A stretch of DNA of 64,000 bases from Rhododendron vialii (Eukaryota; Streptophyta; Magnoliopsida; Ericales; Ericaceae): NCBI RefSeq assembly GCF_030253575.1, contig NC_080562.1:30893852-30957851 (forward strand), written 5' to 3'. The translations under genes were made by a program, and so were the position numbers. Shown here in pieces: positions 24,802-62,023 of the stretch. Positions within the stretch are counted from its first letter, which is position 1. Every line of letters starts with the position of its first letter. The notes beneath the pieces were generated by a model, which saw only the letters and a program-made list of their open reading frames with translations, did not search any database and had not been told where the DNA came from.

Positions 24802-24920
24802 TTAAGTCATTCTTCCTCGTCTTCGGTGGTAACTTCCAGAGGCTAACATCATCAGGCAAAAGAAATAGTATGAGATGTGCCGTATGACAGGGAACATGGT
24901 GGTATCGGGAAAGAAGAGTG

Positions 24921-27900
24921 TATTAGGAAAGCACATTTCAGTCATATCCGCATTTCAGTCATATCCTTGACTGAAGATATTTCAGCCCATGATTTTAGCA
25001 CCTCATGGTCAATATGTCCATGTGCATTCTGTAATCATGCTAGCTGTAATCTTGCATAATCCCATGACTTAGGGGATTTGATTCTTGCATAATCCCATGA
25101 CTTAGGGGATTTGATACTCTTGTACTCTGTATATATAGTGATCAAAGATGAATAAAATGTTTAAGAACTTCCAGAATTTTACATGGTATCAAAGCTACAC
25201 TAAATTCATATAGTTCTTTACATCATTCTTTACATCTCACAATGTCTTCAACTGATTCTACCCCTCCTGTCCAGCATGAATCCATAGATAATCCCTACTT
25301 CTTGCACCATTCTGACAATCCAGGCCAAGTTTTAGTTTCAACTCTTCTAAATGGTGATAATTATCCCTCATGGCAGCGTGCTATGATAGTTGCTTTGTCT
25401 GCCAAAAATAAGTTTGGCTTTGTTGATGGTTCTTTACCAAAGCCAAATGATTCCTCTCCCAATCGTTCATCATGGGTTCGTTGTAACCACATGGTGCTCT
25501 CATGGTTGCTTAATTCGCTTGATTATAACCTTCGGGAGAGTGTTATTTTTGGGGAAACTGCTTCAGAAATTTGGGCTGACCTACGTGAACGATTTTCTCA
25601 AGGGAATGGTCCACGTCTTTTTCAACTTCAACGTGAGATTGTTAACCTCCATCAAGACCAACAATCTGTCGCAGCTTATCATACTCGAATGAAAAGTTGC
25701 TGGGATGCTTTATCTCATCTTACCAATCTTCCCTCCTGCACTTGTGGAGCAGCCAAAGCAATATCTGATCTACAACAACAATTTCGGTTACTTCAATTCC
25801 TTATGGGATTGAATGATTCCTTTACCGGCGTACGCAGCCAAATGTTACTAATGGAACCTTTGCCATCTGTGAACAAGGCTTATAGCCTACTCCTTCAAGA
25901 GGAGAAACACCGTGAGGCTCTCATTCCAACAATGGAATCCACGAATTCTATTGCTGCTATTGTTAAGCATCAAAGCTCTAATTCTGGGCCACAGATTTCC
26001 CTCACAAATCCAACTGCTGCTGCTGCAAATTATAGGGGCCATTCAAATGCTCCTCATCCTAATGGGGGACAAAAGTTTCACAAAAAGATTCGCCCACGGT
26101 GCTCATACTGTGACCAAATTGGACATTCTAGAGAGAAATGTTATAAGTTACATGGGTACCCCGCACGTCCAACAATTCCATCCCAAGCTCACAACGTTGA
26201 GGTTCCTGATCCTCTTCCTATGCCGCCTATTATGTCGCCTAGCCACCCACAATTCACACCAGAACAATATCAACAGATCATTTCCATCATAGGTAATTCG
26301 CAACCAAGTGCTCATCTTGCAGGTAAACCATCTACCTCTCTTTGGATAATTGATACCGGTGCTACCGACCACATGGCTTGTTCTCTTTCATTGTTTAATG
26401 ATTGCCACCTCTCTTCTGCATTAAACCCAGTTCGATTACCCAATGGCTCCACTACTCCGGTAACCAATGTTGGTACCGTGCATCTTACTTCTAATCTGAT
26501 CCTTCATAATGTCCTCTGTGTTCCTACTTTTTCACACAATCTCATCTCTGTTAGTAAACTCACTGCTTCTCTTAACTGTGATGTCATATTCTTCTCTTCC
26601 CATTGTGTTTTTCAGGACCGACGCACGGGGACGATGATTGGATGGGGTAAAGCACATGGCGGATTATACATCTTTGAACAAGATGATGAGCATTTTCCTT
26701 TCACCAGTTTAGTCCAAAAGCCTTCTTTTGATCTTTGGCATTGGCGTCTTGGTCATCCTTCTGCTGCTCGCTTGCGCATTTTAGCAAAGTTGCAATCTGC
26801 AATTTCTTACCAGGATTGCTTATGTTCCATTTGTCCCCTTTCCAAGCAAACTCGATTGCCATTTCCTAGTAGTTATATTAAATCTGTTGCTCTATTTGAT
26901 CTCATTCATTGTGATTTATGGGGTGGTTACCATACACCTTCTTTGATTGGTGCTCACTACTTCTTAAGCGTGGTTGACGATTTTAGTAGATGTACTTGGG
27001 TATTTCTAATGCGTGCTAAATCTGAGGCAAAACGATTTTTATGTGATTTCATTGTCATGGTCAGAACCCAATTCAACAAAACAGTGAAATTCATTCGTTC
27101 AGACAATGGTTCGGAATTCATTTTCAATGAAGTCCAAAAATTCCTTCAGGAAAATGGCATCCTTCATCAACGTAGTTGTGTTGGAACACCTCAACAAAAT
27201 GGAGTGGTTGAACGCAAAAATAGACATTTACTTGAAGTCGCTCGGTCCTTACGATTTCAAGCAAATCTTCCACTTAAGTTTTGGGGTGATTGTGTTCTAA
27301 CAGCTACTTACTTGATCAATAGAATTCCTACACCGGTCTTGTCTGGAAAATCTCCTTATGAAGTTCTGTTTGGCACTATGCCCAAATACTCTCATCTTCG
27401 TGTATTTGGTTGCTTATGCTTTGCTCACAATATTCATTATAGTCACAAGTTCGATGCCCGTGCTCGAAAGTGTATATTTATTGGATATCCATTTGGACAA
27501 AAGGGTTACCGCTTATACGATCTTGAAAATGGGAAAACCTTTACAAGTCGGGATGTCACATTTCATGAAACTGTTTTTCCATTTTATATTCACTCAGCAC
27601 CATCTGAATCCCATCCAGTCATTCCCGTACCTATTCTTGAAACCGTTGATTCTCCAGTGTCATCTATAGCATCTCCGAATTCCACTGTTTCACCCATGTT
27701 GACCAATCAGTCCACAGAGACCAATATATCTCCGCAAAATGATACGGCACCTCCCATTCGTCAATCCACTCGAGTTCGTCAAGTTCCAGCCTATTTACGT
27801 GATTACGAATGCTCTACTGCCATGTTGCCAACCCCTCCAAGGAAGTCCAGTGCACAGGTATCACCCGGTTCTCCCATTCCTTTGTCCAATTATCTCAATT

Positions 27901-29759
27901 ACTCTAAATTCTCTACTGCACATATGTCCTTCATAGCAGCCCTTTCTTTAGAAGAGGAACCTACTTCTTTTACCATGGCTATGAAACATGCTCATTGGAG
28001 GGATGCTATGGCAATTGAAATTAAAGCCTTGGAGGACAATGATACTTGGGTTTTGACTAATCTTCCTCCAGGAAAAACACCAATTGGGTGTAAATGGGTA
28101 TTCAAAATCAAACGTCACTCCGATGGAACCATAGAGCGTTATAAGGCACGTCTTGTTGCCAAAGGTTACACCCAACAAGAAGGCCTTGATTATCATGATA
28201 CTTTCGCTCCTGTGGCTAAGTTAACAACCCTCCGTTGCTTACTCGCTATAGCTGCTATCAAGCATTGGTCTTTGCACCAACTTGATGTGCACAATGCATT
28301 TTTACATGGCGACCTCAACGAAGAAATTTTTATGAGCTTACCACCAGGCTTTCATCGTAAGGGGGAGACTCGAGTTTGTCACCTTAATAAATCTCTGTAT
28401 GGTTTAAAGCAAGCTTCCCGTCAATGGTTTGCAAAAATTTCGTCTGCCCTCCTTGAGGCCGGATATTCTCAGTCAAAGGCAGATTACTCTCTTTTTATGA
28501 ACAAAAAAGGTGATCACTGCACCTTTGTCTTGGTTTATGTAGATGATATTCTCATAGCAGGAAATGATGATCAGGCCATATCATGTCTCAAAGCTTTCCT
28601 ACACCAGCGTTTTCGTATCAAAGATCTTGGCCAATTGAAGTATTTTCTTGGCATTGAAATCGCTCGTTCAAAATCTGGAATTTTTCTCAATCAACGCAAA
28701 TATTTGCTTGATATTCTTGCTGATGCGGGTTACTTGGGATCACGGGGTTGTGAATTTCCTATGGAACAACAACTCAAACTCGATCACAGTGGAGTTTTAC
28801 TTGATAATCCTAGTCGTTATCGTCGTCTTGTTGGTCGGCTTCTTTACCTGACCATTACTCGGCCGGATATTGTTTACGCCGTCAATAATCTCAGTCAATT
28901 TATGCATGAGCCTCGACAACCCCACATGGATGCTGCATTGCGTCTATTGCGCTACCTTAAGACCACACCGGGGGAAGGAATACTGCTATCTTCCAGCAGC
29001 TTGCTACAATTGACTGGTTATAGTGATTCCGATTGGGCCAGTTGTCCGATGACCCGCAGGTCTACAACTGGTTTCATTACCTTTCTTGGCCATAGTCCCA
29101 TCTCTTGGAAGACAAAAAAACAAGTCACTGTTTCTCGCTCTTCCGCCGAAGCTGAATATCGGTCCATGGCCACTGCAACTTGTGAAATTACTTGGCTCAA
29201 ATACCTCCTAACAGATTTGGGAGTTCCTCACCATCAACCAGTTGCTCTTCATTGTGATAATCAGGCTGCAGTGCACATCGCTGCCAATCCGGTCTTCCAT
29301 GAGCGCACTAAACACATTGAACTTGATTGCCATCTTGTGAGGGAGAAAATTCTACAAGGTTTAATATCCACAGTGCATGTTCCTAGCAAAGAACAATGTG
29401 CTGATATCTTTACCAAAGCTCTTGGACGCGATCAGTTTAGTTTCTTAAAATCCAAGTTGGGCATGATCAATCCTCATGCTCCAACTTGAGGGGGAGTATT
29501 AGGAAAGCACATTTCAGTCATATCCGCATTTCAGTCATATCCTTGACTGAAGATATTTCAGCCCATGATTTTAGCACCTCATGGTCAATATGTCCATGTG
29601 CATTCTGTAATCATGCTAGCTGTAATCTTGCATAATCCCATGACTTAGGGGATTTGATTCTTGCATAATCCCATGACTTAGGGGATTTGATACTCTTGTA
29701 CTCTGTATATATAGTGATCAAAGATGAATAAAATGTTTAAGAACTTCCAGAATTTTACA
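24921..29759 (+). mobile_element. Ty1/copia LTR retrotransposon, young and whole-looking
   Basis: The 263-bp LTRs at 24921-25183 and 29497-29759 look identical by eye. They start TATTAGG and end TTTTACA, and contain an internal duplication of about 33 bp. The target duplication is GAGTG at 24916-24920 and 29760-29764. The primer-binding site TGGTATCAAAGC follows the 5' LTR (25184-25195), and a purine tract, GAGGGGGAG, precedes the 3' LTR. One uninterrupted gag-pol frame (25242-29489, 1,415 residues) shows, in order, gag, zinc knuckle (CSYCDQIGHSREKC), protease (WIIDTGATDHM), integrase, reverse transcriptase (YVDDILIAGND) and RNase H. The order protease-integrase-RT is that of copia. Identical LTRs imply a very recent insertion. 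It interrupts the last exon of gene D in the opposite orientation. Confidence 0.95.
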
Positions 29760-31552
29760 GAGTGGAATAAAGAGCACTAAGAGAATGGAAAGGAAAACAA
29801 TTCCCATGATCAGGACAACATTGGCCAACCAAGTGAGTTTACTAACAACTAGACATACACCTGCCATGAATGCTAAGGACATCATAAAAAGAGCTAGCCC
29901 CAACAATGGTAGGGCCAATCTGAGGGAAGTGAGGATTAAATTGAGATCACCTAACTGTGCCCAAATGAGAGACACTGCAACTATCATTGAGCTGAACATG
30001 GCTATGGTGTTGCAAATCACGAATATTTGGAACTTGCTTTTATTCAGCATAGTTGCCATGCCTTGGTTTGGATCGGAATTGTTGTAGCCACCGGGCATTG
30101 TGAAACCCGCTGTGTATGTCACCATGGCTACTAGTGTTGCCACCAACAAGAGTGTGTTGATCCTGTCCTTGTACTTTTCCATGTTAGGCTGTTGATATCC
30201 CAATGAAGTTTGTGTAATTAGTTTTGGAACTTTAGAGCATTTTCTATTCGGTGCACCCGCAGATTTCAATGCCATCCAGGTCAATCGCTGCACAATTTCA
30301 AGAAAACAAAAGAATAACATCTGCTGGTGGTAATGACTACGGAAGCAGTAAGGAAGAAAATGGTAATTAGTGAGAGTAAATAACATAAGCAGTCATATTT
30401 CTCTCTCAAAACACACATGCAAGCAGAGGTATGCAAGATCATGTCGACCTGCACAAATGGCCACAGATTTTCTCTTCCCAAAGCCCATGCTCCCTATATG
30501 TCCAATGCACTCTAAATCACCCAATGTAGTAGAAAATATCAGGTCTCAACGATTTTGAGGTGCGATCCTACAATTGGAAGTACATTAGGACAGGGGGACA
30601 TAAATTTTGGGAACAAAATAGACAAAACGAACCCATACTCTCACAATAGTTTTGGGCACCAAACCTTTTTTGCACAAAATCACATGGCTAAGGAAAAATT
30701 TCTCAATGTTCCACAATATGCTAATCTAGAAAGATGTGCAAGATGTGCTCGCAATTGTTTTACAATAAAGGCCATCTGACAGCGACAGGTATAAGTTACA
30801 AAAAAAGAGGCCCTAATTTTTGCAATTTGTGGACTATAATTTTGTGTTCTTCTGATTGTGTAACATCGCAGTAGTTACTTTTTAGCAGCACACGTACCTT
30901 GCGGAATGAAGCCATTGTATCCATGCGTTCCTCAGCAGCATCAAGAGCGGTCATGCCATCACCATTCACTAATTCCAGGTTAATTCTCTTGTCCCATGTC
31001 AAAGAACTTACTACTTTAGGATACCAGTGGATTGCTGCCAAGTGCAGAGGTGTGTTCCCACTATCATCTCTCTCGTTTAGAAGTTTCTCATGCTCAGGAG
31101 TCTTAAGTATATAATCGATGACATTGCTTTTCCCATTCCTAGCAGCAACATGAAGAATGTTCTCACCTTCGTTTGTCAACAACTCCCTCCAATCAGGGCA
31201 ATGCTGAAGCAACTTCCGAAGAATATCCAAATGGCCTTTTCCTGATGCTGTGTGGACAGGCAAGAAGCCATTGCCATCCCTTTCAAGTACACATTCACTG
31301 GATTTGTCTAGCAAGTATTGAACTCCCTCATAGTAACCTTCGGATGCTGCACAATGGAGCGGAGTTTCCCCATCTTCATCTCTTAATAGAATGAATTTTG
31401 GCATTTTCTCCATGATAATTTCTAACATACCTAGAAACAGAGGAGAGTGGGATGTTGTGAGACACTTATACATGAATAACCACGCCCTTTAATAGTATCA
31501 AAAAGATCAATCATTTTTATTCTGTTACAAATATTTACAAAGTTTCAATACT

Positions 31553-31725
31553 CCGGTGCTACGTTAACAACTAAGGTTTTGTACCCCTTTTTATTTTCTT
31601 CATAAAACCGGTACTACGTCAACAACTAAGGTTTTGTACCCCTTTTTATTTTCTTCATAAAACCGGTACTACTTCAACAACTAAGGTTTTGTACCCCTTT
31701 TATTTTCTTCATAAAACCGGTACTT
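31553..31725. repeat. Three 55-bp tandem repeats in gene D intron 1
   Basis: Units beginning CCGGTACTAC (31553, 31608, 31663) and containing AAGGTTTTGTACCCC are repeated about three times with few differences, ending near 31725. Confidence 0.85.
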
Positions 31726-32696
31726 TAATACTTTAATTTGGTTTCAGTTCAAATATCGATTGGCACCAGCCGTATTGGATACCGACTGGCATGGTTAGAT
31801 ACCGGGTGAGTACAAGATACCGAAATCTTTAAGTCTAAAAAATTTACTCCATTAGCTTCCGAACACTCACTCTGATTGCAACTTCAATACAATTTTCCTT
31901 TCAACAAAAGACTTGAAGTAGTTTACAACCAAGGTCTTAAATAACAGTGTCGGAACACGTAACAGCAACGGTCGTAGTTTAAAGGCATCGATAGTATCAA
32001 ACAATACATAGTAGGAATCGGTTGTAGCAGTCGTCAATCTCTGTAACCGTAATGACCGTGAACTGGTCAGTAAATCGTAAACAGACTAATACGTAACGGG
32101 ATGGGTCGATACACATGCATCTAATCAATATATAGGAGTATAACCGAAGGTAAAAAAAACCGTTGCGTATTGACCGATATTCAAAGCCATATTACAGACT
32201 ACAAGAATTTTATAAGAGCAATGCTAGGAACACAATTTTAAAATATAACTCTGGACACAATGGCGTCCAAAGCCGTTCGATGATGATGGTTTCACATTCA
32301 TCGGAATGGCTCTGAACACAGCTGAAATAAAGGGTTATAGGCTCACACCTTTATTTCTTCCCCTAATGGCAGCATTAAGTGGGGAGTTCCCTTTGATGTC
32401 CTCAGAGTTGGAATAATACCCCTCGTCAATGCAAATCTGCAACCTAAGCTCAACCAAATCCACTTTCCCAAATTCAACGGCCAGATAGAACGGAGACTTC
32501 CCTTCATTATTCGCAACAAATGACACTTCTCCCCCATATCTTATCAGGTATTCAACGAATGACAGAACATGATTTTTTGCATGGTAGAAGGTCTCAACGA
32601 CCTCTACAAAATGAACCGCTCCCATAATTATTGCGGCCCCGAAAAAATTGAAAATGGACGAGAATAGACAGTAAGAAACTTGACAGGACCCCTCCC

Positions 32697-33015
32697 CTCC
32701 GTTAGTGCGCCGATAGCACGGTGGGGTGTGTACGGCACCTCGGTGTGCTCAACTCGTATAAACTACTGTGTTCCTTTCGTTTCCCTCGGTTACTTGCTTT
32801 ACAATTTTTTGTTGTAATGGCAGGCGATGAGAAGCTCGGCGTGTCAGCTGCGATTGTGATGAGAAGCGGGGTAGGGCGTTCCGGCGTCACAGAGGGTTTC
32901 TCATAAGCTCAGCTATTTTAATTTCGTCGCAGCTTATTCCTCCGGTGAAAAATATCTTGCGATTGTCCATAATTTCTTATTTGTCATTCCTTAAACAATG
33001 CCCTGATCCATATTC
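32697..33015. repeat. Dispersed repeat, inverted partner at 44.2-44.6 kb
   Basis: Blocks such as CCCTCGGTTACTTGC, TCATAAGCTCAGC, CTTGCGATTGTCCATA and ACAATGCCCTGATCCATAT recur in the same order on the opposite strand at 44205-44580. No coding sequence is recognised (a 61-codon frame on the plus strand is not conserved). It lies directly upstream of the truncated exon 1 of gene D. Confidence 0.65.
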
Positions 33016-33361
33016 TTAATACTACCGAAGTACAGTACTACATCATGAATAAAAATGTGGTACACGAAATTGACTTTCACACTCTCCTTTTATTTAACGT
33101 ATACTCTTTTTTTATTTTGTAGTGTTGTAAAATAACATGATTATCCTTTTTATATGTAAAGAGAAAAATGTATGAAGAGTAGTTTCATAATTTCACATGA
33201 ATGAAGACAAAGAATGTGACGCAGCGGAATTAACAAAATAATTAATTGCGTACTAATCTAAACGAGATATGTATTTGTAGCCATGAGCAATTCTTGAATC
33301 CACAAGAAGAATAGAAAAATTTCTGAATATTATTAATAGAAAATCTTAAAAGTTAATTACG

Positions 33362-33397
33362 ACGAGGGTTGCACGGTTGCACCCTTTTTAATACTAG
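33362..33397 (+). mobile_element. Candidate Helitron 3' terminus
   Basis: A hairpin (GGGTTGCA against TGCACCC) is followed about 13 bases later by CTAG and then T, the arrangement of plant Helitron 3' ends. The 5' end and any coding region were not found. Confidence 0.4.
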
Positions 33398-33647
33398 TAG
33401 AGAAATTCTATTTTAGGTAGGACATTAGTAAGACAATTTCTTGGTAGTTAAGAAATTATAAAGAAGAACATAAAATAAAATAAAAGACCAATAAAATTCT
33501 AAAAGGAAAGGAAATAAAATTCCTAGAAAAAATTCTAAATCATGCCAAAATAAGAAGATTAAAAACGTGCAAAATAGGTAGCACAAATAAGATTTCCTAA
33601 TAATATAATTTCCAAAATAAAATTCTAATTCTAAATAAAATTTTAGA

Positions 33648-33690
33648 TTCTTATTTTTATAATTCTGTAATTATAAAAATAAGAATAAAA
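33648..33690. repeat. Perfect AT-rich hairpin
   Basis: ATTCTTATTTTTATAATT and its exact complement are separated by CTGT. It may be part of a decayed MITE; no function can be assigned. Confidence 0.6.
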
Positions 33691-33769
33691 TATTTTAGAA
33701 TCTTGTCCTACATCAAAATAGAGTGCACTTGGATAAAAGCGCGTGTGAAAATCAATTTCCTTCCAAAGG

Positions 33770-35215
33770 TAGAATTTTTGATTGGTCCACTATAGCATGT
33801 TTTTAACCCCACTAGTCCACTTTTAAAGTTCTTAACTCCTCTGGTCCACTAATAATTTTCATGACAAAATTACCCTATGTAAAATAAACAATGGCCTTAT
33901 TTGGCTAACACAAAAAATATATTTTTAAAATTTTTTTTGATTTTGTTACAACCACGTAACCACCACCACCACCACCACACCCACCTCCGCCTCCACCACC
34001 ACGCCAACATATAACGTTATACTCCTATGTGTGACAAAAATTTCTCTTTTCTTTTTTTTCCCACCTCCACCACCACGCCAACATATAACGTGATATGTGT
34101 GACAAAAAAAATTTTTTTCTTTTTTTATTCATGTTTTGAGTCATTCCCTTCTTGAACCCGACACCCCTTAACATATAACGTTATATGTGTGACAAAAATT
34201 TCTCTTTTTTTTTTTATACCTATTTTGAGCCATTTCATTCTTAAATCCGCCACACTTAACATATAAGGTTATCTGTCTCAATATGCGCTCTTATCTTATG
34301 TTTGGTACTACATCAATAAAAGTGCACATATAATCTTATATGTCTCAATCTGTCCTCTATACGTTATAAAAAACGAAGATAGATTTGAAACATATAAGGT
34401 TATCTATTAATATCTGAAACATATTTTTGACCAACACAAGTACATATAATATTATATGTGCATATCTAAATTTTGTACCATGCCAAATATGTTCTCTGCA
34501 TGTTGAAAAAGTGCACATATAATTTGTTCAATTTTTTTCCAAGACATACCATTTCCGTGGTTTTTCATCTTTCAGAATTTAAACAGTAACGAATGGAGTA
34601 ATCATCATAGTATATCATTTCCTCTTTTCCTATCAAATGTAAAATACAGTAGCAGACAGAGACAAAAAAAGTGAGAAGAATTTTTGCCAACAAAACAAAA
34701 GACAAAGGGAAAAAACACAAATAGGACTCCTACCCCTCTACATCATCGGTTGCTTTCTATGCCAACTGCCAACACTAGGATGAATGCCTATATACGTGGA
34801 GGTCGTCAAGACTTCAACGGATCTCTCGATTTTGGCTTCTTAGCCCAAAACCCTTATACAGCGCCAACCAAATCCTCGCCGGCATCCTCATCACCGTTGA
34901 AAGACGCATCAACATAGGTTTTTTGCCATGACTGGTACGCGGTCGTCCATATCGACCGTCACTTCTAACAAAACAAGAGATTATGTCAATGAGAGAGAGA
35001 GAGAGGAGGCTGTGCTCCAGATTTATTTTTGGTCTAGGGTTTTTCTCTATATGAGAAATTATATATAGAATGACATTTTTGTCTTGATTTAATTTATTTT
35101 TTAAAAAAAGTGGACTTAAGGTCTTATACTAAACTATATTAGTGGACTAGAGAGGTTACAAACATTAGAGGTGGATTAACTGGGTTACAAGTTCTCCATA
35201 GTGGACCCTATATTA
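33770..35215. mobile_element. MULE-like (Pack-type?) element with degenerate TIRs
   Basis: Left end GGTCCACTATAG...CTAGTCCAC and right end GTGGACTAGAG...TAGTGGACC are inverted over about 80-100 bp, enclosing about 1.25 kb. The inside holds CCACCACC-rich sequence, an AT-rich tandem array (34.0-34.5 kb) and a GC-richer stretch near 34.68-34.97 kb that looks like a captured exon, which I cannot identify. A relative starts at about 63240. No target duplication could be fixed. Confidence 0.45.
34000..34480. repeat. Array of ACATATAA-type degenerate repeats
   Basis: The near-palindrome ACATATAACGTTATATGTG recurs with variations near 34008, 34078, 34168, 34258 and further on, often followed by TGACAAAAATTT. 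Spacing is about 70-90 bp. It lies inside the MULE-like element. Confidence 0.6.
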
Positions 35216-35584
35216 ATTTTTTATTATTTATTTCTTTACCATTCTACAAAAAGAACAAACTAAAATTAAAATAACTAAGGTATCCGGGTCAGTTTATGCT
35301 CATTTCAACATCTCGGTGACTCAATCCCATCGTCCATAGTTTGGGAATCCAATTAAATATGGACTGCCTCATAAGAATTGATAGTATGTGAGAGGTTTTG
35401 AACTGAAACCTCTGAAAGAAGTAAATTCCCAAATTGCCACTAGGCAAAACCCTTGAGATTTCAAAGAATGGGTTATTAATAGGACAAATGTAAAACGAAA
35501 AACTGTCAAAATGCTTGTAAAAAGTTCTTTTTTTCTCGGTACTTCAAAAAAGTATTTGCATCAAGTGTTCAAACTTCAACGAAC
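35216..35584. other. AT-rich gap
   Basis: No gene or recognisable repeat is seen. Confidence 0.4.
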
Positions 35585-35920
35585 CGTAGAAACTTTATAT
35601 CCATTTCAAAATTAATTAGCAATAAGTAGAGAGATTCTAAATGTTATTAAATGATCATCCATTCAACTCTCAAGCAATGTGAGACTCTATTTTTTTAACA
35701 TCCCCCCTCACATGCAGCCGCGTTTTGAGGTCTGTTACGTGTGGCCACTTTTGGGTCCTGTCATGGTGCAACCTTTTTGCTGGTCTGTCATCGTGGGATA
35801 TGGATTGTAAATTTATTTTAAAATGTGAAGTGGAACGGACCCCGCTTTGATACCATGTAGAAACCTTATATCCATCTCAAAGCCAAACCACTTAGCTTTG
35901 AGATGGATATAAGGTTTCTA
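35585..35920 (-). mobile_element. TRIM-like LTR element remnant
   Basis: On the minus strand, a polypurine tract (complement of TCCCCCCTC, 35701-35709) precedes one LTR-like end (35585-35700). At the other side, a primer-binding site (complement of GCTTTGATACCA, about 35844-35855) follows the start of a second LTR (from 35856). The interior is about 130 bp and noncoding. The second LTR is only partly recognisable and runs into a 26-bp perfect inverted repeat (35858-35883 against 35895-35920). Old fossil. Confidence 0.5.
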
Positions 35921-37536
35921 GATGTGTTCTATTTTGAAAAGTCTATGTCTGATTATTGATATTTGTCATGCACTAAAGTCTTTGTTTGCATAGTAATACA
36001 GGTAGGATAATTATCCCTTCTCTTGTCTATAAAAGAACAGAGAAAACAGAAAGAAAAGAAATACCAAAAAAAAACCCGCTAAATTTGCAACAATTCATAA
36101 GTATTTTCACCAATTAATAATACATTACTGATTACTTCAATGCTAAAACAACCTGTTTATTACAACAGACACACCAATTAAACTACATTTTTGAGCATAG
36201 AATTACATAGTGAGGTGTTGGAATAGAGTTTCTTGAATATGATCGGATTTAGAAGATCGATCCTAATAATAGTTCTTGAAGAACTAACTTTATACTCATA
36301 TTGTGTTCATTATTGTCTTTACTTTTCTGCCAAGTTTCTTTATTATTGTCTTAATTTTATAACATGTTATTAGCACGAAGTTCTAACCATAGAGGGTGTC
36401 CTTCTAGAAATGATGTGCCCCTAGTCCTTAAAGTATTTTAAGTATTATTAAAATAAAATATAAAGATGTACACTCATGTTGAAAAAAGTTCATCTTAGGC
36501 GTCACATAAAAATACTAAAAGACAAACTTTTTTGGAAAAACAGTCTTTTAGTAACTCTTTGGTCGTCTTTCACAAACTTTTCAACTCTGGACTTTATTTT
36601 TATATTTTTCTGATTCCTCTAATTGAGCTAAATGTTGTGATGTAGAAATTATACCCAAGTTTAACCAAAAAGACTCCCAAAAAATTAGGAAAAATGACGG
36701 TTAAAGATGTGTTTCAATAATTAATACCCGCCGATGACATTTTCGACATTAATAAATGTTTTTAGTTTGTCCTTGACGGATATTAATTAGAGCTACTATT
36801 AATTATCAAAATACATTATGGGTCGTCGTTTTCCCAAAAATTAGCCTACGTTGCTGTTGCAAGCGACGCTTCTATCGGTTAGTGTGTCCATCTAGCAATA
36901 GTTTGAAATCGACGTTTTCGTCCGAATTGTTTGTCGTGAGCAGAACTTCTTTTGGTATGACCAAACATGGCGCAAGCAATGTTAAATATTGTGTACAGTG
37001 TGTAATAAAAGCCAAACTTGGTGTACTCCATGTTGGACGTGCAATGCACCATGTTCGCCACCAGTGAGTTAAAATCTCAGCTCTCCGGCATAACATATAT
37101 ACACATAGAGAAAGTCTACTATATACATCTCATAAAAGGGTATATTATATGCACCTATTTTATGGTTCATTCATAATATTTTAGTGTGTTTCATAACTTT
37201 TGTTTTAAAATTCATAATTTTTCAGCAGTACAATTCGTAATATTTTTATTATGATTCATAACATTTTGGTGTATCTCGTAACCTTTATACGATTCGTAAC
37301 ATTTTTTTTATAATTCATAACATTTTAGAAAATACATATGATACATACTCAAATAAGGAGTGTGTATTATAGTCTTTTCCATACACATATATATACAGAC
37401 ACAGATATGTTAAGATTTCTGATCAAACGAGTCTTAAACAAAAGAAAAGAAGAGAAGGTCTGATTACATATGTTCATTTCTTAGTATTACATATATGTAT
37501 ACGCTCCTTTTCCTACTAACTTACACATAACTATTA
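35921..37536. other. Intergenic D-E
   Basis: AT-rich, with no supported gene. Around 37.14-37.33 kb the phrase ATTCATAACATTTT recurs several times, a short degenerate repeat. Confidence 0.4.
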
Positions 37537-43469: not shown

Positions 43470-43884
43470 TTATAGGGACCAAAAAAACTCGCGCATAGAG
43501 AAGAAATGGCTTCGTAAATCTCTGAACAAAGAAAAATAAGGACAATTCCAAGTGAGGAAGAAAATTGGTGAAATTGGTTTAAAGATAAAGAAGTTATTAA
43601 ATTCTTCTTTGATGGACAAAGATGTGATTATATCGATTAGGCCCTATGTTACATCGTTCCCGTACTAGGAATGGAAATAAAAACGTGATATGCCGCATGC
43701 CCTAAACTATGGTACAGCTAGGTAGACTTATGTGGATTAGAATATAAGAATGTGCTTATTTTGATATGAAAATCCAACTAGTACAGAACATTATTTTTTG
43801 AACACTTGAGCAAATACATTTTAGAAGCATTTTGACATTTTTTTCGTTTACATTTGTCCTATTAATAATTCATTTTTTGGAATC

Positions 43885-44075
43885 CAAATGGTTGGCCCGC
43901 TTGGGATTTGCTCCATCCCAAGGTCTCCGTTCAAAATCTCCCATCAACTCTTATGGGCAATCCAAAAGGGGCTTTGTCCCAAATTCTCCCGGTATGGACA
44001 ATGGGATTGGGTCCCATGATAAGTTGAGGTGTGCGTAAGCTGACCTGGATACCCTGAGTTGATTTAGTTTGTTCT
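43885..44075 (+). mobile_element. Probable tRNA-derived SINE relic (Au-like)
   Basis: A tRNA-like head (GGTTGGCCCGCTTGGGATT, then GTTCAAAATCTCC) is followed by a body ending GGTGTGCGTAAGCTGACCTGGATACCC, which resembles the 3' part of the widespread Au-type plant SINE. Identification is from memory of that motif. No clean target duplication was found. Confidence 0.4.
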
Positions 44076-44204
44076 CCTTATAGAATGGTATAAGGAAATA
44101 AGTAGGAAAAACATCGGGATTCGATAAGAGAATTCATAATCTAGGTGTGCCACATTTTGATTCAATACGTTAATTTGTGTATTAACTATTAAGAAAGATG
44201 TGAT

Positions 44205-44580
44205 TATATGGATCAGGGCATTGTATAAGCAATGACAAATAAGATCTTATGGACAGTAAGAGCATTCAAAGACATCTACTTATGGACAATCGCAAGAAAT
44301 TTCTCACCGGAGAGATGAGCTGCGACGAAAACTGCTGAGCTTATGACAAACAGGTCGGGCAGGCCATTTCCCCCCGGGCCAGATGCTAGAGAGATGTTAA
44401 AAAAGAAACCCTCTCTGAATAACCCGGAACGCTACTCATCAGAATCGCGTAACGAGTTTCTCGTTGGTTGCCCTTAGAACAAGAAAAGGCAAGTAACCGA
44501 GGGAAATAAGAGGAACACAATAATAATCCCAGTTGAGCACAACGAGGCGCCGTGCACACGGTAATGCATCTTGCGCACTG
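44205..44580. repeat. Dispersed repeat, inverted partner of 32.7-33.0 kb
   Basis: It carries, in inverted order, the blocks listed for 32697-33015 (for example TATGGACAATCGCAAG, GCTGAGCTTATGA, GCAAGTAACCGAGGG). The family is unclassified. Confidence 0.65.
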
Positions 44581-54287: not shown

Positions 54288-54330
54288 AAACGTGTTGCGC
54301 CGTGCCTTCAGGCACGGGCTCATCCACTAG
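54288..54330 (+). mobile_element. Helitron 3' terminus
   Basis: A perfect 7-bp hairpin (CCGTGCC, loop TTCA, GGCACGG) is followed 13 bases later by CTAG and a T, the standard Helitron 3' end and insertion context. The next base to the right is copia integrase sequence, so the Helitron inserted into the copia element. Confidence 0.7.
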
Positions 54331-56577
54331 TATTTGACTGTTGCGTCATATTGAGTTCGACACATAGATAAAAAAGTCTTGAAGTGAGAGAACACTTCAG
54401 ACTTGTGACGCATAAAATATACCCATGTATAACGAGTACAATCATCAATAAACAAGACAAAATATCTATACCCTAGTCTAGACAGAACGGGAGAGGGACC
54501 CCATACATCACTATGAATCAAATCAAAGGGTGAAGTTTTAACATCAGAATGCACAGGAAAAGGCAAATGGACACTTTTACTTAAAGAGCAACTAATGCAA
54601 GATTTATTAATACTGCCCAATGAGGAAAGATTATATTTCAAAAAACCGGAACTAAACAAATTATCTAGCTTTTTGGCATTAGGATGCCATAGCCTACGGT
54701 GCCACATATGCCAAATTTTATTGGAAACAGAAACATCAGAATCAAAATGAGTAAATAAGCAAGTGCCACTGATTGGCCTCTCAAACTCCAAAGCAAACGG
54801 GCGACCAATCCTACGACCCTTCCCTTTCACTGTCCCAGTGCGACGGTTCTGTATAAGACATCCATCACGAGAAAAAGAAACAATGTGATCATCATCAACA
54901 AGTTGGCCCACAGAAACAAGATTAGTTGTAAGCTTAGGAACTAGAAAAACATTGGGTAAACAAAAAGAGGATTTAGGTGTAATAGACAAAGATAGGTTGT
55001 TTATTCCTACGATTTCCAACTTGTCACAATTTGCTGTAAGGATCTGGTTATGTCCTGAATAAGGTTTGGCGGACGTGTGACTCACATGTCTTCCAGTCAT
55101 GTGATTGGATGCACCCGAGTCAATTATCCAAAGAGGATTGATTACCGGAGATAGATGAGAATTTTTACCAGACAAGCCAATAGCGGAGAAAGCCGAGGAA
55201 ATAGCCGAGGATACAGAGCTTTGTACCAACTGTCGAATATCATCAGAAATCGGTGTTGGTTGACATCCCACTGTGTCGGAGCTACTAGAAGAGGATGCAG
55301 TTAACTTTGCATCATTACCCGACCCATCCAATGAAACGCTCGCGGCATGGTAAACACGATGATTTGATTTCTTTCGGTTGAAATTTTTGCTCCCTTTTTG
55401 TTGAAGATCTGGACAATCAGTCACAATGTGGCCAGTCTCTTTGCAATAGACACAAGTGTTCTTCTTTTTACAGTGTGATACGACATGCCCAAACTCCTTG
55501 CATTCGAAACATTGTGTCTTTGAAAAATCCTTTGGAAGAGGTTTTCCATAGCCCTGTTTGGCAATGAAAACTGACTCTACAGTCCTTTTCCCTTCCAGAG
55601 TAGCTTGTGTTGCAATCCTTGTCTCTTCACGAAGGACATCTCCCAAAACCATATCCATTGTTGGAAGCGTCCCACGATTTAAAATGTTCCCCCGAATATT
55701 CTCGTAATCAGATCGCAGTTTCATCAAAAACTGCATCACTTTCCTCTCATCGTACACGTTCTTGAGGCTTTGTATACAACAAGCATTGGTCATATTTGCC
55801 AGGTTCACAAACTCATATTCAGCCCATAAATCCATAAAACCAGCATAATATTCCTGGATACTTTTCTCACCATGGTCATAGTAAAAAATATCATTCTCAA
55901 TCTGGAATTTTCGTGCGAGGTTGGATTGTTGGTACACCTTCTCAAGGTAATCCCACATCTCTTTCGCTGTACGAAGTCCTCTCATGGGAAGTCCAATGTT
56001 TGTATCCACCGACCCCAAAATCCATGAAACAACTTTAGCATTATTCACCTTCCATTCATTTGTCTTTTTAACATCAGTTGCATTAGGTATTGCTTCAGTT
56101 CCGTCAACATAACCCCACAACCCTTTTCCCTCAACAAAGAACTGAAAGTGGAATCGCCAGATTGAATAATTTTTCCCATCTAACTTTACAGCCAAGGTTT
56201 CCCCTCTATCAGAAGCCATTCGAAAATACTGAAAAAATCTGAGATCGAAACTCGAACAAAGAAAACCTAAACCTTTGAAGAGGTTCTGGAAACAGATCAA
56301 GACTACGACAAGAAACTAGAATACTCCTACCTGAGATCGAAACTCGAACAAAACTTAATCCTTTGAAGAGGTTTGGATCGGAGTATGCTCTGATACCATG
56401 TAAATGCCAGTATACAGCAGCAGCAGCAGCGAGAAGAAGTTTGCAGAAAATATGTTCAATTATCATTAGCCACCAAATAACGTCAAACTTATATCTAGGG
56501 TACAAGAGTTCTATATTTACATAAGAGCCCCTAAACTATTACAAGAAATACAATAAGAGTACACTAGTTTCCACACA
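54331..56577 (-). mobile_element. Ty1/copia retrotransposon, 5' portion only
   Basis: On the minus strand, a probable 5' LTR of about 179 bp (56577-56399, starting TGTGTGG) is followed by a tRNA-Met primer-binding site (complement of GCTCTGATACCA) and a gag-pol frame to the left end. It encodes gag, two zinc knuckles (CFECKEFGHVVSHC and CVYCKETGHIVTDC), protease (WIIDSGASNHMTG) and the start of integrase (HSDVWGP). Reverse transcriptase, RNase H and the 3' LTR are not seen in this window. A Helitron end abuts it, so the element predates that insertion. It is broken; age cannot be estimated without a second LTR. Confidence 0.85.
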
Positions 56578-57139: not shown

Positions 57140-57188
57140 ATTGATATCTTGGTCCTAGATTCCATTTATCTTTCTTGAGTTTTGTTCA

Positions 57189-60100
57189 ATGGCTGCCGTA
57201 AGATCCCTAGAAGCCTCTTCTTCAACTTCACCTTGTATCTATGATGTCTTCTTGAACTTCCGAGGGGAAGACACTCGAAAGTCTTTCACTGATCACCTCT
57301 ACACAGCATTGGACTATGCCGGATTTCGCACCTTCAGAGATGATGATGGAATTGAAAGGGGAGAAAAGATCAAGTCTGAACTGCAAAAAGCAATTAGAGA
57401 GTCGAGGATGTCAATAGTTATCTTGTCAAAGAACTATGCATCTTCAAGTTGGTGCCTTGATGAGCTTGTGATGATCCTCAAATGCAAGAGTACCTCTGGA
57501 CATGAAGTTCTTCCTCTTTTCTATGACGTGGATCCATCCCTAGTGAGGAAGCAAATGGGAAGTTTCGAAGAAGCATTTGCACGACATGAAGGGAAAATTG
57601 AAGCAGAAAGTGCTGGAAGGAGAAAGGAATGGATGAGCAAGGTGGAAGAATGGAGGGCAGCGCTAAGAGAAGTTGCTGATTTTGCTGGGATGGACTTACA
57701 AAATAGAGCTGATGGGTAATTTCCTTCCAAGTCCTTTTTCCTAATTACTAGTCTAGCATATGTTTTGTGAGTTTCGGATGATATTGACTCATGCCTGAAC
57801 CTTTTTTTTTAATTGTAGTTCTCGTTTTCTGAGATGGAGATTTCATAAGCAAATGATATCCAAGAGATTTTCTGGATGAAATTGTTTCATGCCAGGGCCT
57901 CTTGGATGTATTTGTATCATACCCAGGACCTTCTGGATAGAAGTTTACCGTTTTTGAGATGGAGGTTTTATAAGCAAATTATATTCCTACACAACCTTTT
58001 TTGTCCTTTTGATGTGAAACTATCTGTACATTATATAATTATATAATTTATGCTACGCAATTCGTAGTTTCAAAGCTACGATTAACTCAGCTAGAAAGTC
58101 TGTTAAAGGTTTTCCCATCTCTCTTAACAAACTGGACTGCGTTGGAAAAATTGTGAAAGCTCGAGTGTTGTGGGGGTCATGTTGGAATCTGAGAGCTAAG
58201 TTGGAGAAGCTATCGTTTCGTTTATGTTTAAGATTCTCTGTTTGAAGCTATTTGAAATTGTTATGCCTAGTAAATTCATTTCCAATCACAGTAGTCTTAC
58301 CAGAAACTTGGTCTTTGTTGACAAATAGCAAGAGTAGGAAAGCAGATTAATAGGAAAAAGAATTCTGCTTTTTGAACAAATCATTGTCAAAACACATTTA
58401 TTCGAATATGTTGAACTCATTTGGTTTTCAACAATGACAATAACAGAATAGTTTTATTTCGTACTGCTTGAGAATTTGCAATTTACTTCAAGTCTGAGTT
58501 ATCATTTATTGTGCTAATTTTTTCATCTTGATCGCAATCATTAGGCATGAATCGAGGTTTATAAAGAAAATTATCAAAGTAGTTGGAGACAAACTAAGTC
58601 GCACAATCATGGACATTGGCCCCTATGCGATTGGAATATGTTCTCGTGCAAGAGAAATTCAGTTTTGGTTAGAAGATGAATCAGCTGATGTTGGTGTAGC
58701 TGCAATTTGTGGGATGGGTGGAATAGGGAAGACTACCATTGCCAAGTTCCTATATAATTTAAACTTCTCAAGATTTGAAAGTAGCAGTTTCTTGGCAAAT
58801 GTTAGAGAAATTTCAAAACAACAGGATGGTTTACTTTGTTTACAAAGACAGCTTGTTTCAGATATTTTAAAGGGAAGGAAGGAGAAGATATCCAACGTTG
58901 ATGAAGGTATTGTCAAGATTAAAGAAGCCTTGCGTTTCAAAAGGGTTCTTGTGATTCTTGACGATGTTGATGAACCAGACGAGTTGTATGCAGTGCTTGG
59001 AATGTGTGATTGGCTATTTTTAGGGAGTAAAATCATCATAACCACTCGGCATGAGCGCTTGCTTAGACCTCATGAAGTCTGCAAGGTGTACAGGATTGAA
59101 AAATTGGATTATGACGAGTCCCTTGAGCTTTTCAGTTTGCATGCCTTTGGACAAAGCCATCCTGTTGATGATTTTGCGGACACCTCAAAGTTGGTGGTTG
59201 AACATTGTGAAGGGCTTCCGTTGGCAATTAAAGTTTTGGGATCTTCTCTATCTGGACAAAGCATTGGAGTATGGAGAAGTCAGTTAGAAAAATTGAAAGC
59301 AATCCCTGATAGGAAAATCCTTGCAAAACTCAAAATAAGTTATGATTCTTTACAAGACGAGCACGATAGAAGTTTATTCCTCCATCTTGCTTGTTTCTTT
59401 GTTGGGAGCGATAAGGACTTTACAATTACAATCATGGATGAATGTGAATTTTATACAGTGGTTGGGATTCAAAATCTCATTGACAGATGTCTGGTAACAG
59501 TTGATGGATACAACAAGCTGGTGATTCATCATTTGCTTCAAGAAATGGGAAGAGAAATAGTCCGTCAAGAATCACCCAATGAGCCAGGAGAACGTAGCAG
59601 ATTGTGTAATCATAAAGATTCCTTTAATGTTCTAAGACATAATACTGTAAGAATTTTTCTCCTCATGTACATATAGGAGTTGCTATGCTATTTACTTATC
59701 AATGTTCTCAACCCCCTCGCCCCCTTTTTTTGCCAGGGCACGAGAAAAATTGAAGGCCTCATTCTTGATACGAGTTTATTGAAGGCAAATATGTCTGCCA
59801 GGACAGTGTTTGGTGTCAATAGAAAATGCAGTTTGGAAGAATTCTTGGACAACTCATTATTGTCAAATATGTGGAATTCGCTTAAGAGATATCGTTTGGG
59901 CGTCTTCTCCCAGAACTCACTTGGCAATCCTCTGGCAGATTCAAATGAAATAGCTTTGGAAACTAATGCATTTGCAAAAATGGAGAATCGAAAATTTCTG
60001 AAGCTCAGTCATGTACAAATAAGCGGAAGTTATGAAAACTTTCCGAAAAAAATAAGATGGATGTGTTGGCATGGCTTCCCATTTGAATCCATACCAAAGT

Positions 60101-61224
60101 ATTTCCCCTTGGAGGCCCTGGTAGCTCTTGAGATGCCTTATAGCAGCTTGAAGCATTTTTCGGCCGGAACTAAGGTTGCATTGCATTGTCATTTTTCTCG
60201 TCTTATTGTGCAGGGAAATTGACAGAAGCATTACAATCTGACATTTTCTTTTCGTGTTTGTCAGTTTCTTGAGTTACTGAAAATCCTTAATCTCAGTCAC
60301 TCCCATAGCCTTGCAAGAACTCCCGACTTCATAGTACTTCCCAATCTTGAGAAACTGATACTTGAAGATTGTACAAGGCTGGTCGAGATTCACGAATCCA
60401 TAGGAGACTTGGCGAGACTTGTTTTGTTAAATTTAAAAGATTGCAGCAGTCTGAGGAAGCTTCCAAGAAGTATTGGTTTGCTAAAATCTTTGGAAACACT
60501 TGACATTTCTGGTTGCTCAAATCTTGAGAATTGGCCAACTGAGATGGTGAATATGGATTCTCTAACAGTGCTACGAGCGGAAAATGTTACTGGCATAACT
60601 CAATCACCCATTACAATTCAGAATGTCAAAGCCTGGTATTCGTTCATTTGGCTTTCGCCATTGAAGCCGAAAAGAAATCCTGCAACCTCATGGGCATCTT
60701 CTTTACCTCGGTCCTTAGTTAAACTACATCTTCGGGGCTGCAATCTATCAGACGATGCTTTCCCTAAAGATCTGAGCAACCTATCCTTGTTGCGGGAATT
60801 AGACCTGAGCAATAATCCTATTATTAGCCTCCCAGATTGCATCAGAAGTCTTACTGGGCTCGAAATCCTTTGCGTATGCTCGTGCACAAGGCTCCGGTCA
60901 CTTGTAGTGCTGCAGGATTTAAAAAATTTGCAATTCATGAGTTGCTGGTCGTTGGAGAAGATAATACTCCCAGAATACGAAATAGCAGGCTTTTTCTGTG
61001 GTTTCAGGAAATTGACATCGCCCGGAGAATACGGGATACTGGGTTCTTCCTCTGGTTCGACTCCCATGCTGGTAGAGTTTTCCGGCAGATACAAGTTGGA
61101 ACCCCTAGGAGATGTTGATAAAGAGATAATAGATAATTTGGGCTTGTTCGACTTGGGATCCATGCGAAACCTAAAAGTTAGACTTGCATTCCCCTTCTCT
61201 TACCGAAAGAGGTTTTCTCTACAG

Positions 61225-61268
<44 letters not shown>

Positions 61269-62023
61269 TCCTTAACTTTTGCCTTTTTGTGGCACAGGGA
61301 TGTCATGAAGAACATGTATTCTCCACTTATCTTCCGGGGAGCAAGGTTCCAGGGTGGTTCAATCTTATTGATAAAGGAAGTTCATTATCTTTTACTGCAC
61401 AACATCGTAATTCCAGAATCCGATGCTTGAGTTTGTGCGTTGTGTATGCATTTTCTTGTGATTATGATCGGTTACATCCATATGATCGACTTTTCCTTAA
61501 TAACGTTATCACTAATACCACCAAGAGATTGATTTGGAGCCATTGCCCACACGTAATTGGCATTCCGGAAGCTAATGAGGATATGATTTGGTTAAGCTAT
61601 TGGAAGTTTGAAAATCAGGTGGAAGGTGGTGATGAAATGAATATATCCGTGTTTGCAAGAAAAGGATTTCAGGTGAAGGAGGTAGGAGTCCGCCTTTTGT
61701 ATGACGTGGAGAAAGTAGAGAAGATTACACAAGAAATTCCATCAACAAGTGAAGAAGTATCAGAACAAATCTTCCGCTACGGAGTTGCTGTACCTGGAAA
61801 TTCGTCTTCATATCAAGAAAATACACAAGTCTATGCCGTTGGTCGTGATATCGTTGACATAGCCAAAACTCTTCGCTGTGGGTTTTTAGTAGATTCGCTT
61901 CCCTCTTCAATCATTCCTTTGGTCATTCGGACCCTTTCATCAATTGCCAAGTCAGCTCCTCCTGATGATGACGAGCAGCGAGTAGGGATCAGGGGCTCCT
62001 GCTTTACGACGATGGCAGAATAG
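57189..62023 (+). CDS. TIR-NB-ARC-LRR disease-resistance receptor (TNL) with C-JID
   Basis: Five exons (57189-57715, 58545-59646, 59737-60174, 60265-61224, 61298-62023) with canonical GT-AG junctions and a continuous frame give 1,250 residues. The TIR domain (about 16-150) has YDVFLNFRGEDTR and SSWCLDEL, with Glu92 at the position of the catalytic NADase glutamate. NB-ARC shows the P-loop GMGGIGKTT (232-240), kinase-2 VLVILDDVD, GSKIIITTRH, CEGLPLAIKVLG and LFLHLACFF. The MHD motif is Ile-His-His (503-505). LRRs span exons 3-4, and exon 5 carries the post-LRR C-JID start (GSKVPGWFNLIDKGSSLSF). TNLs sense pathogen effectors, oligomerise and use the TIR NADase to signal through EDS1. The intron positions match the usual TNL plan. 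The effector recognised is unknown. Confidence 0.93.
61227..61262. repeat. CT microsatellite inside the last TNL intron
   Basis: About 18 CT units start just after the exon-4 donor GT. The whole intron is only 73 bp (61225-61297), so the repeat makes up half of it. Confidence 0.85.

Follow-up and report, generated by a model that had tools for sequence, protein, structure and literature searches.

The ankyrin-PGG cluster and its interrupted member

The window, a stretch of 64,000 nucleotides from Rhododendron vialii, contains a tandem cluster of ankyrin-PGG genes consisting of g1, g2, g3, g5 and the minus-strand gene g4, and a further member of the cluster, g0, lies outside the window, some 10 kb beyond its left end. 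Exon 2 of g4 (30898-31430) is open and encodes ankyrin repeats (Ank_2, E=4.7e-24), and it is followed by intron 2 (30288-30897, GTACGT...GTGCAG) and by an exon 3 that spans 24802-30287 when an inserted element is included. The upstream part of this last exon (29760-30287) encodes the PGG domain (PF13962, E=2.2e-33) and four hydrophobic stretches, scored by Kyte-Doolittle only, and g4 thereby has the PGG domain and the predicted multi-pass C-terminal membrane region that characterize the plant ankyrin-PGG (ANK-TM) family. The tail of the exon, which is severed by the element, occupies 24802-24920 and ends with the stop codon TAA at 24802-24804. A search of solved structures with the PGG exon of g5 gave no match at E values up to 1, and among viral contigs one stretch fitted the pattern of the g3 PGG exon, with none confirmed. 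The window also contains a 55-bp unit that is repeated 3.1 times in tandem in intron 1 of g4 (31553-31724) and, on the plus strand at 57159-62023, a gene with several open frames whose translations suggest by eye a TIR-NBS-LRR type.

When the element and one copy of its target-site duplication are omitted, the host frame continues to the TAA at 24802-24804, and the resulting exon of 642 nt is open. The earlier note had pointed to the exon length shared with a paralogue. The lengths are indeed equal, as exon 3 of g1 (1522-2163) also has 642 nt (g2, 645; g3, 633; g5, 633; g0, 639), but the alignment shows that this equality depends on one gained and one lost codon that compensate each other and is partly luck, which is why we rejected it as an argument. 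The continuity rests instead on the frame scores: the first 29 codons past the insertion site score 39.25 against g1, g2, g3 and g5, a value reached by none of 20,000 shuffles, compared with -24.5 and -35.0 for the two remaining frames. In g0, g1, g2, g3 and g5, which are the other genes with all three exons found, the sequence is uninterrupted at the corresponding place and continues into a tail of 37-38 residues.

A full-length Copia element in antisense orientation

The element (24921-29759, plus strand) lies antisense in the last exon of g4, with the target-site duplication GAGTG on its left (24916-24920) and on its right (29760-29764). Its 5' LTR (24921-25183) and its 3' LTR (29497-29759), both on the plus strand, comprise 263 bp each and are identical at 263 of 263 bases. 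A putative primer-binding site, TGGTATCAAAGC (25184-25195, plus strand), is positioned directly 3' of the 5' LTR, and we presume this function also from a similarity to initiator-tRNA sites; a putative polypurine tract, GAGGGGGAG (29488-29496, plus strand), directly precedes the 3' LTR. The gag-pol frame (25242-29489, plus strand) has 1415 codons and no internal stop, and its motifs follow the Copia order of gag (CCHC), protease, integrase, reverse transcriptase (YVDD) and RNase H. Pfam supported gag, integrase and reverse transcriptase, with rve and SH3 in 26691-27770 and RVT_2 in 27771-28700, so that the integrase precedes the reverse transcriptase in one open frame; the RNase H region is putative, with the motif RSSAEAEY at 29136 and no Pfam match for 28701-29489. 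The element thus combines the expected hallmarks of a Copia element, namely two LTRs, a primer-binding site and a polypurine tract (both assigned by position) and a 5-bp duplication. That a young-looking Copia element splits the PGG exon, as had been proposed before, was confirmed by the GAGTG on both sides, the identical LTRs, the open gag-pol and the continuous host frame.

The canonical TG...CA LTR ends are absent, and the element reads TATTAG...TTTACA. These ends are compatible with a Copia element, because TA...CA ends have been described for TARE1, a tomato Copia element of the Ale lineage (PMC3701649; for the ends also PMC5659011). TARE1 resembles our element in the TA/CA ends, the short LTRs, the size of about 4.7-4.8 kb, the 5-bp duplication, a primer-binding site that begins with TGGTATCAA, and a G-rich polypurine tract. 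It differs in the length of the LTR (194 bp, versus 263 bp in the window), in the continuation of the primer-binding site (GAA, versus AGC in the window), and in the number of copies, which is 354 for TARE1, 180 of them intact with duplications, compared with three near-identical full copies here. The relation to Ale/TARE1 is a resemblance in ends, size, primer-binding site start and polypurine tract.

Each LTR carries a perfect 33-bp tandem duplication (25050-25115 and 29626-29691) and a 17-bp tandem duplication (24934-24966 and 29510-29542). No solo LTRs were seen in the window, where the only matches besides the two LTRs comprised 13-36 bases at E 0.16 or worse, and a search of viral contigs with a reverse-transcriptase piece gave no match. 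A second Copia-type fragment, which reaches from gag to the start of the integrase and is only distantly related to the first element, is found on the minus strand at 54330-56315.

Sister copies and the age of the insertion

We searched the assembly to which the window belongs (532.6 Mb, 13 contigs) with the LTR and obtained 18 matches. Six of them cover the full length at 100%, although one contains a single mismatch. These six pair into three full-length copies of the element, one in the window, one on contig C9 (8100402-8105240) and one on contig C3 (10266417-10271255). Of the 4839 bases compared, two distinguish the window copy from the one on C9 and three from the one on C3, and the latter two copies differ from each other at five; all differences are private to the C9 copy (two) or the C3 copy (three), and none is private to the window copy. 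A perfect 5-bp duplication is present at all three copies, each time with a different sequence and with flanks of its own, and the frame lacks an internal stop in all of them. With a reverse-transcriptase piece, the same genome yielded the three copies at 100%, another on contig C4 at 99%, a partial match that covers 432 of 666 bases at 100%, and a match at 91%, and these counts are lower bounds, as 40 of the 156 candidates were scored. The Copia element is a recently mobile, low-copy element, and the recency of the insertion, postulated in the earlier note, is supported by the identical LTRs and, more strongly, by the pairwise differences of 2, 3 and 5 among 4839 bases.

At assumed substitution rates of 2.5e-9, 7e-9 and 1.3e-8, the two differences would place the age of the insertion at no more than about 50-260 thousand years (95% limit), and errors of reverse transcription would only reduce this limit. 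The LTR identity was dismissed as the main clock, as it is too weak with a 95% bound of 0.44-2.28 million years; if the open frame is also taken into account, under an assumed rate of indels, the bound is 0.22-1.16 million years.

The shortened front of g4 and its history of selection

Exon 1 of g4 is a remnant (about 32347-32547, minus strand) that corresponds to the last ~66 of the about 222-230 codons of paralogue exon 1 and is followed by the donor GTGTGA. The gene thus lacks about 155 N-terminal ankyrin residues and with them the N-terminal repeats of the other cluster genes. When the exon-1 proteins of g1, g2, g3 and g5 were compared with 31400-37500, nothing outside the remnant was better than E 0.1, and genome-wide the remnant matches only itself and two cluster genes, the latter only from remnant residue 27 on. 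The host had been named an ACD6/ITN1-type protein in the earlier note, a putative assignment, but it is not an intact gene of this type, its exon 1 being cut to ~66 codons and its severed tail having diverged.

At the break of exon 1 lies a dispersed repeat (32565-32697), which contains the only in-frame ATG of the g4 exon-1 open frame (32623-32625). Among the matches listed for a 55-base piece of this repeat are nine places in the genome outside the cluster. Six of these were fetched, and five match 125-137 bases of the window at 74-79%, the sixth matching 55 bases at 89%; none of 200 random 133-base pieces of the window matches these six loci at E 1e-10. Since the age of the Copia element is low, we infer that the loss of exon 1 preceded its insertion. 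Sequence upstream of g4 (32726-33013 and 35218-35525) recurs in inverted and diverged form at a distance of about 11 kb (44206-44559 and 43816-44111), and the g4 side contains an extra ~2.2 kb (33013-35218) with tandem and inverted repeats.

Because exon 3 before the insertion site has omega values of 0.21-0.27 against g1, g2, g3 and g5 (dS 1.1-1.4), the g4 sequence was constrained through much of its history; for exon 2, dS is saturated against the paralogues, and omega means little there. A fragment of g4 that comprises parts of intron 2 and exon 3 (g4b, C6:30971613-30971984) is found on the opposite strand with 91% identity, and its protein is 84% identical to that of g4 over 126 residues, with one stop that is not among the 112 codons used in the comparison below. 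For g4b, neither exon 2 nor the tail was detected in the 9.9 kb retrieved, and the fragment was rejected as an empty-site control, as its similarity to g4 ends before the insertion site. Since the split of g4 and g4b, the 112 codons have acquired three silent and four replacement changes on the g4 side and two silent and eight replacement changes on the g4b side, with six changes unpolarised, and these polarised changes lean towards constraint on g4 in numbers too few to decide. The shortened g4 either stayed useful or fell out of use recently, and the absence of stops from the remaining frame, together with the low omega, suggests that it may have been under selection when it was hit.

The C-terminal tail and the predicted protein

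In the reading direction of the host, 37 codons are exchanged for 13 codons of the 3' LTR, which end with a stop at 29718-29720. A replacement of about 38 residues by 12 had been suggested, and as coding arithmetic the change of the tail holds, with 37 residues replaced by 13. The element cuts exon 3 behind residue 176, close to where the fourth hydrophobic stretch ends. The scoring extends this stretch to residue 187 whether or not the element is present, so that all four stretches are kept, as is the PGG domain (PF13962). From the ATG in the repeat, the predicted spliced frame of g4 has three exons with GT-AG borders and now comprises 459 codons, compared with 483 codons without the element, and it is open, with no stop in either form.

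The tail itself had diverged. Residue identity between g4 and the five paralogues is 58-63% before the site and 8-10 of 29 after it, and this drop was detected against all five of them (Fisher p 0.0009-0.014; the test covers 29 residues and related paralogues, and the five p-values are not independent), with no comparable drop in the six pairs among g1, g2, g3 and g5. The in-frame tail of g4 has a basic end, GSYHRRRGRMT, whereas the paralogue tails end in acidic residues, and an acidic TTEDEEE like that of the paralogue tails is present in the +1 frame of g4, with its own stop TGA at 24807-24809. The g4 tail thus looks as if it had been frameshifted near its end. As only ~0.07 indels are expected in the tail even within the loose LTR age limit, this decay probably predates the element.

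Possible consequences of the insertion

Taken together, we consider it likely that a Copia element inserted antisense into an already shortened and tail-diverged g4, with a probably small effect on the protein, and that this was probably tolerated. A recently mobile, low-copy element has entered exon 3 of this diverged cluster member close to the last codons of the fourth hydrophobic stretch, and the front of the gene (~155 residues), with the dispersed repeat at the break, had probably been lost by then. Translation from the ATG in the repeat would give a 459-residue ankyrin-PGG protein that retains the ankyrin repeats encoded by exon 2 as well as all four hydrophobic stretches and ends in 13 LTR-encoded residues. 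The effect on this predicted protein is probably small, because the insertion removed its least conserved part, and the insertion was probably tolerated because this family member was already shortened and was hit where it is least constrained. If it matters, this would more likely be by the ending of the transcript, by antisense transcripts that start in the 3' LTR and run into the gene, or by silencing of the element. Trans-silencing of the neighboring genes by such antisense RNA was set aside; in a comparison that covered g1, g2, g3 and g5, three 21-mers of g4 exons 2-3 are present in g2 and none in the other three. The event is of an ordinary kind, and no new kind of system is needed.

It is rather unlikely that the shortened g4 had been working and that the insertion, by removing a needed tail or transcript, created a null or altered allele. 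Such a loss of function would fit with the open empty-site frame of 483 codons and its GT-AG splice sites, with the omega of 0.21-0.27 upstream of the site, and with exonic ONSEN insertions in Arabidopsis, for which transcripts have been described whose predicted products are truncated or are chimeras with LTR tails (PMC12112155). However, ~155 N-terminal residues are gone and the start codon lies within a repeat, the tail had previously diverged and was apparently frameshifted, and the hydrophobic stretches survive.

We regard it as improbable that splicing treats the element as a new intron and takes it out of the host transcripts, leaving the protein nearly unchanged. For ONSEN, splice-out has been described alongside LTR-tailed products, including a case of exonic insertion, and in the window, joining the GT at 29758 to the AG before 24842 keeps the frame with the tail end GSYHRRRGRMT; yet 11 GT and 20 AG sites were scanned, among which in-frame pairs are expected by chance, and the donor at 29758 fits just four of nine positions of a consensus that was used in place of a trained model. 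ONSEN and our case share a young Copia element in a host exon and a predicted LTR-encoded C-terminal tail, and they differ in that transcripts were sequenced there, whereas g4 is known from DNA and was already shortened (PMC12112155).

In the boldest reading, to which we give little credence, g4 would be an active gene whose protein owes both of its ends to mobile DNA, the start codon and the first ~20 residues to the repeat and the last 13 residues and the stop to the LTR; the 459-residue product would serve the intact neighbors as a short partner or decoy, and the insertion would be a segregating tail switch. MHA1 and MHA1L, small modulators of ACD6 (PMC11387256), set a precedent for a role of a shortened member, as small partners of a full-length family member, but unlike these g4 would be a membrane protein of 459 residues. 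ACD6 and Lr14a are ankyrin-transmembrane immune proteins with evidence for calcium-channel activity (PMC11387256, PMC7878491); g4 resembles them in its ankyrin repeats with a predicted multi-pass membrane region C-terminal to them, and its predicted three exons are matched by those of Lr14a, but g4 lacks the N-terminal repeats. Finally, it is hardly credible that the insertion is old with LTRs homogenised by gene conversion, or that the near-identical copies are an assembly artefact. The LTR identity alone would permit 0.44-2.28 million years, but the entire 4839 bp are near-identical in three copies with individual flanks and duplications and with frames free of internal stops.

With the likely account of a tolerated antisense insertion, the locus offers a transposon insertion that is well dated, may still be segregating and lies among clustered genes of an immunity-linked type, and in titles and the beginnings of abstracts, a partial coverage of the literature, no earlier Copia or retrotransposon insertion in an ACD6 or ankyrin gene was named. 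If the shortened g4 is expressed, it would provide a natural with/without pair for the role of the ankyrin-PGG tail. The insertion also hints at which exon hits survive: two of the three near-identical copies lie within open frames that belong to multigene families, and each of these two hosts seems to be damaged elsewhere as well, which with an n of 2 serves as a pointer only. The C9 copy is located in a frame that is LINE-like by eye, without a Pfam match. The C3 copy splits an open frame of a family that has 25 matching places in the genome, the C3 host included, and that we take to be F-box/LRR-like from a motif recognized by eye; the joined host peptide has no Pfam match and is 58% identical to two fetched family members. 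A few codons beyond the insertion site, the C3 host seems to leave the family frame by an apparent frameshift.
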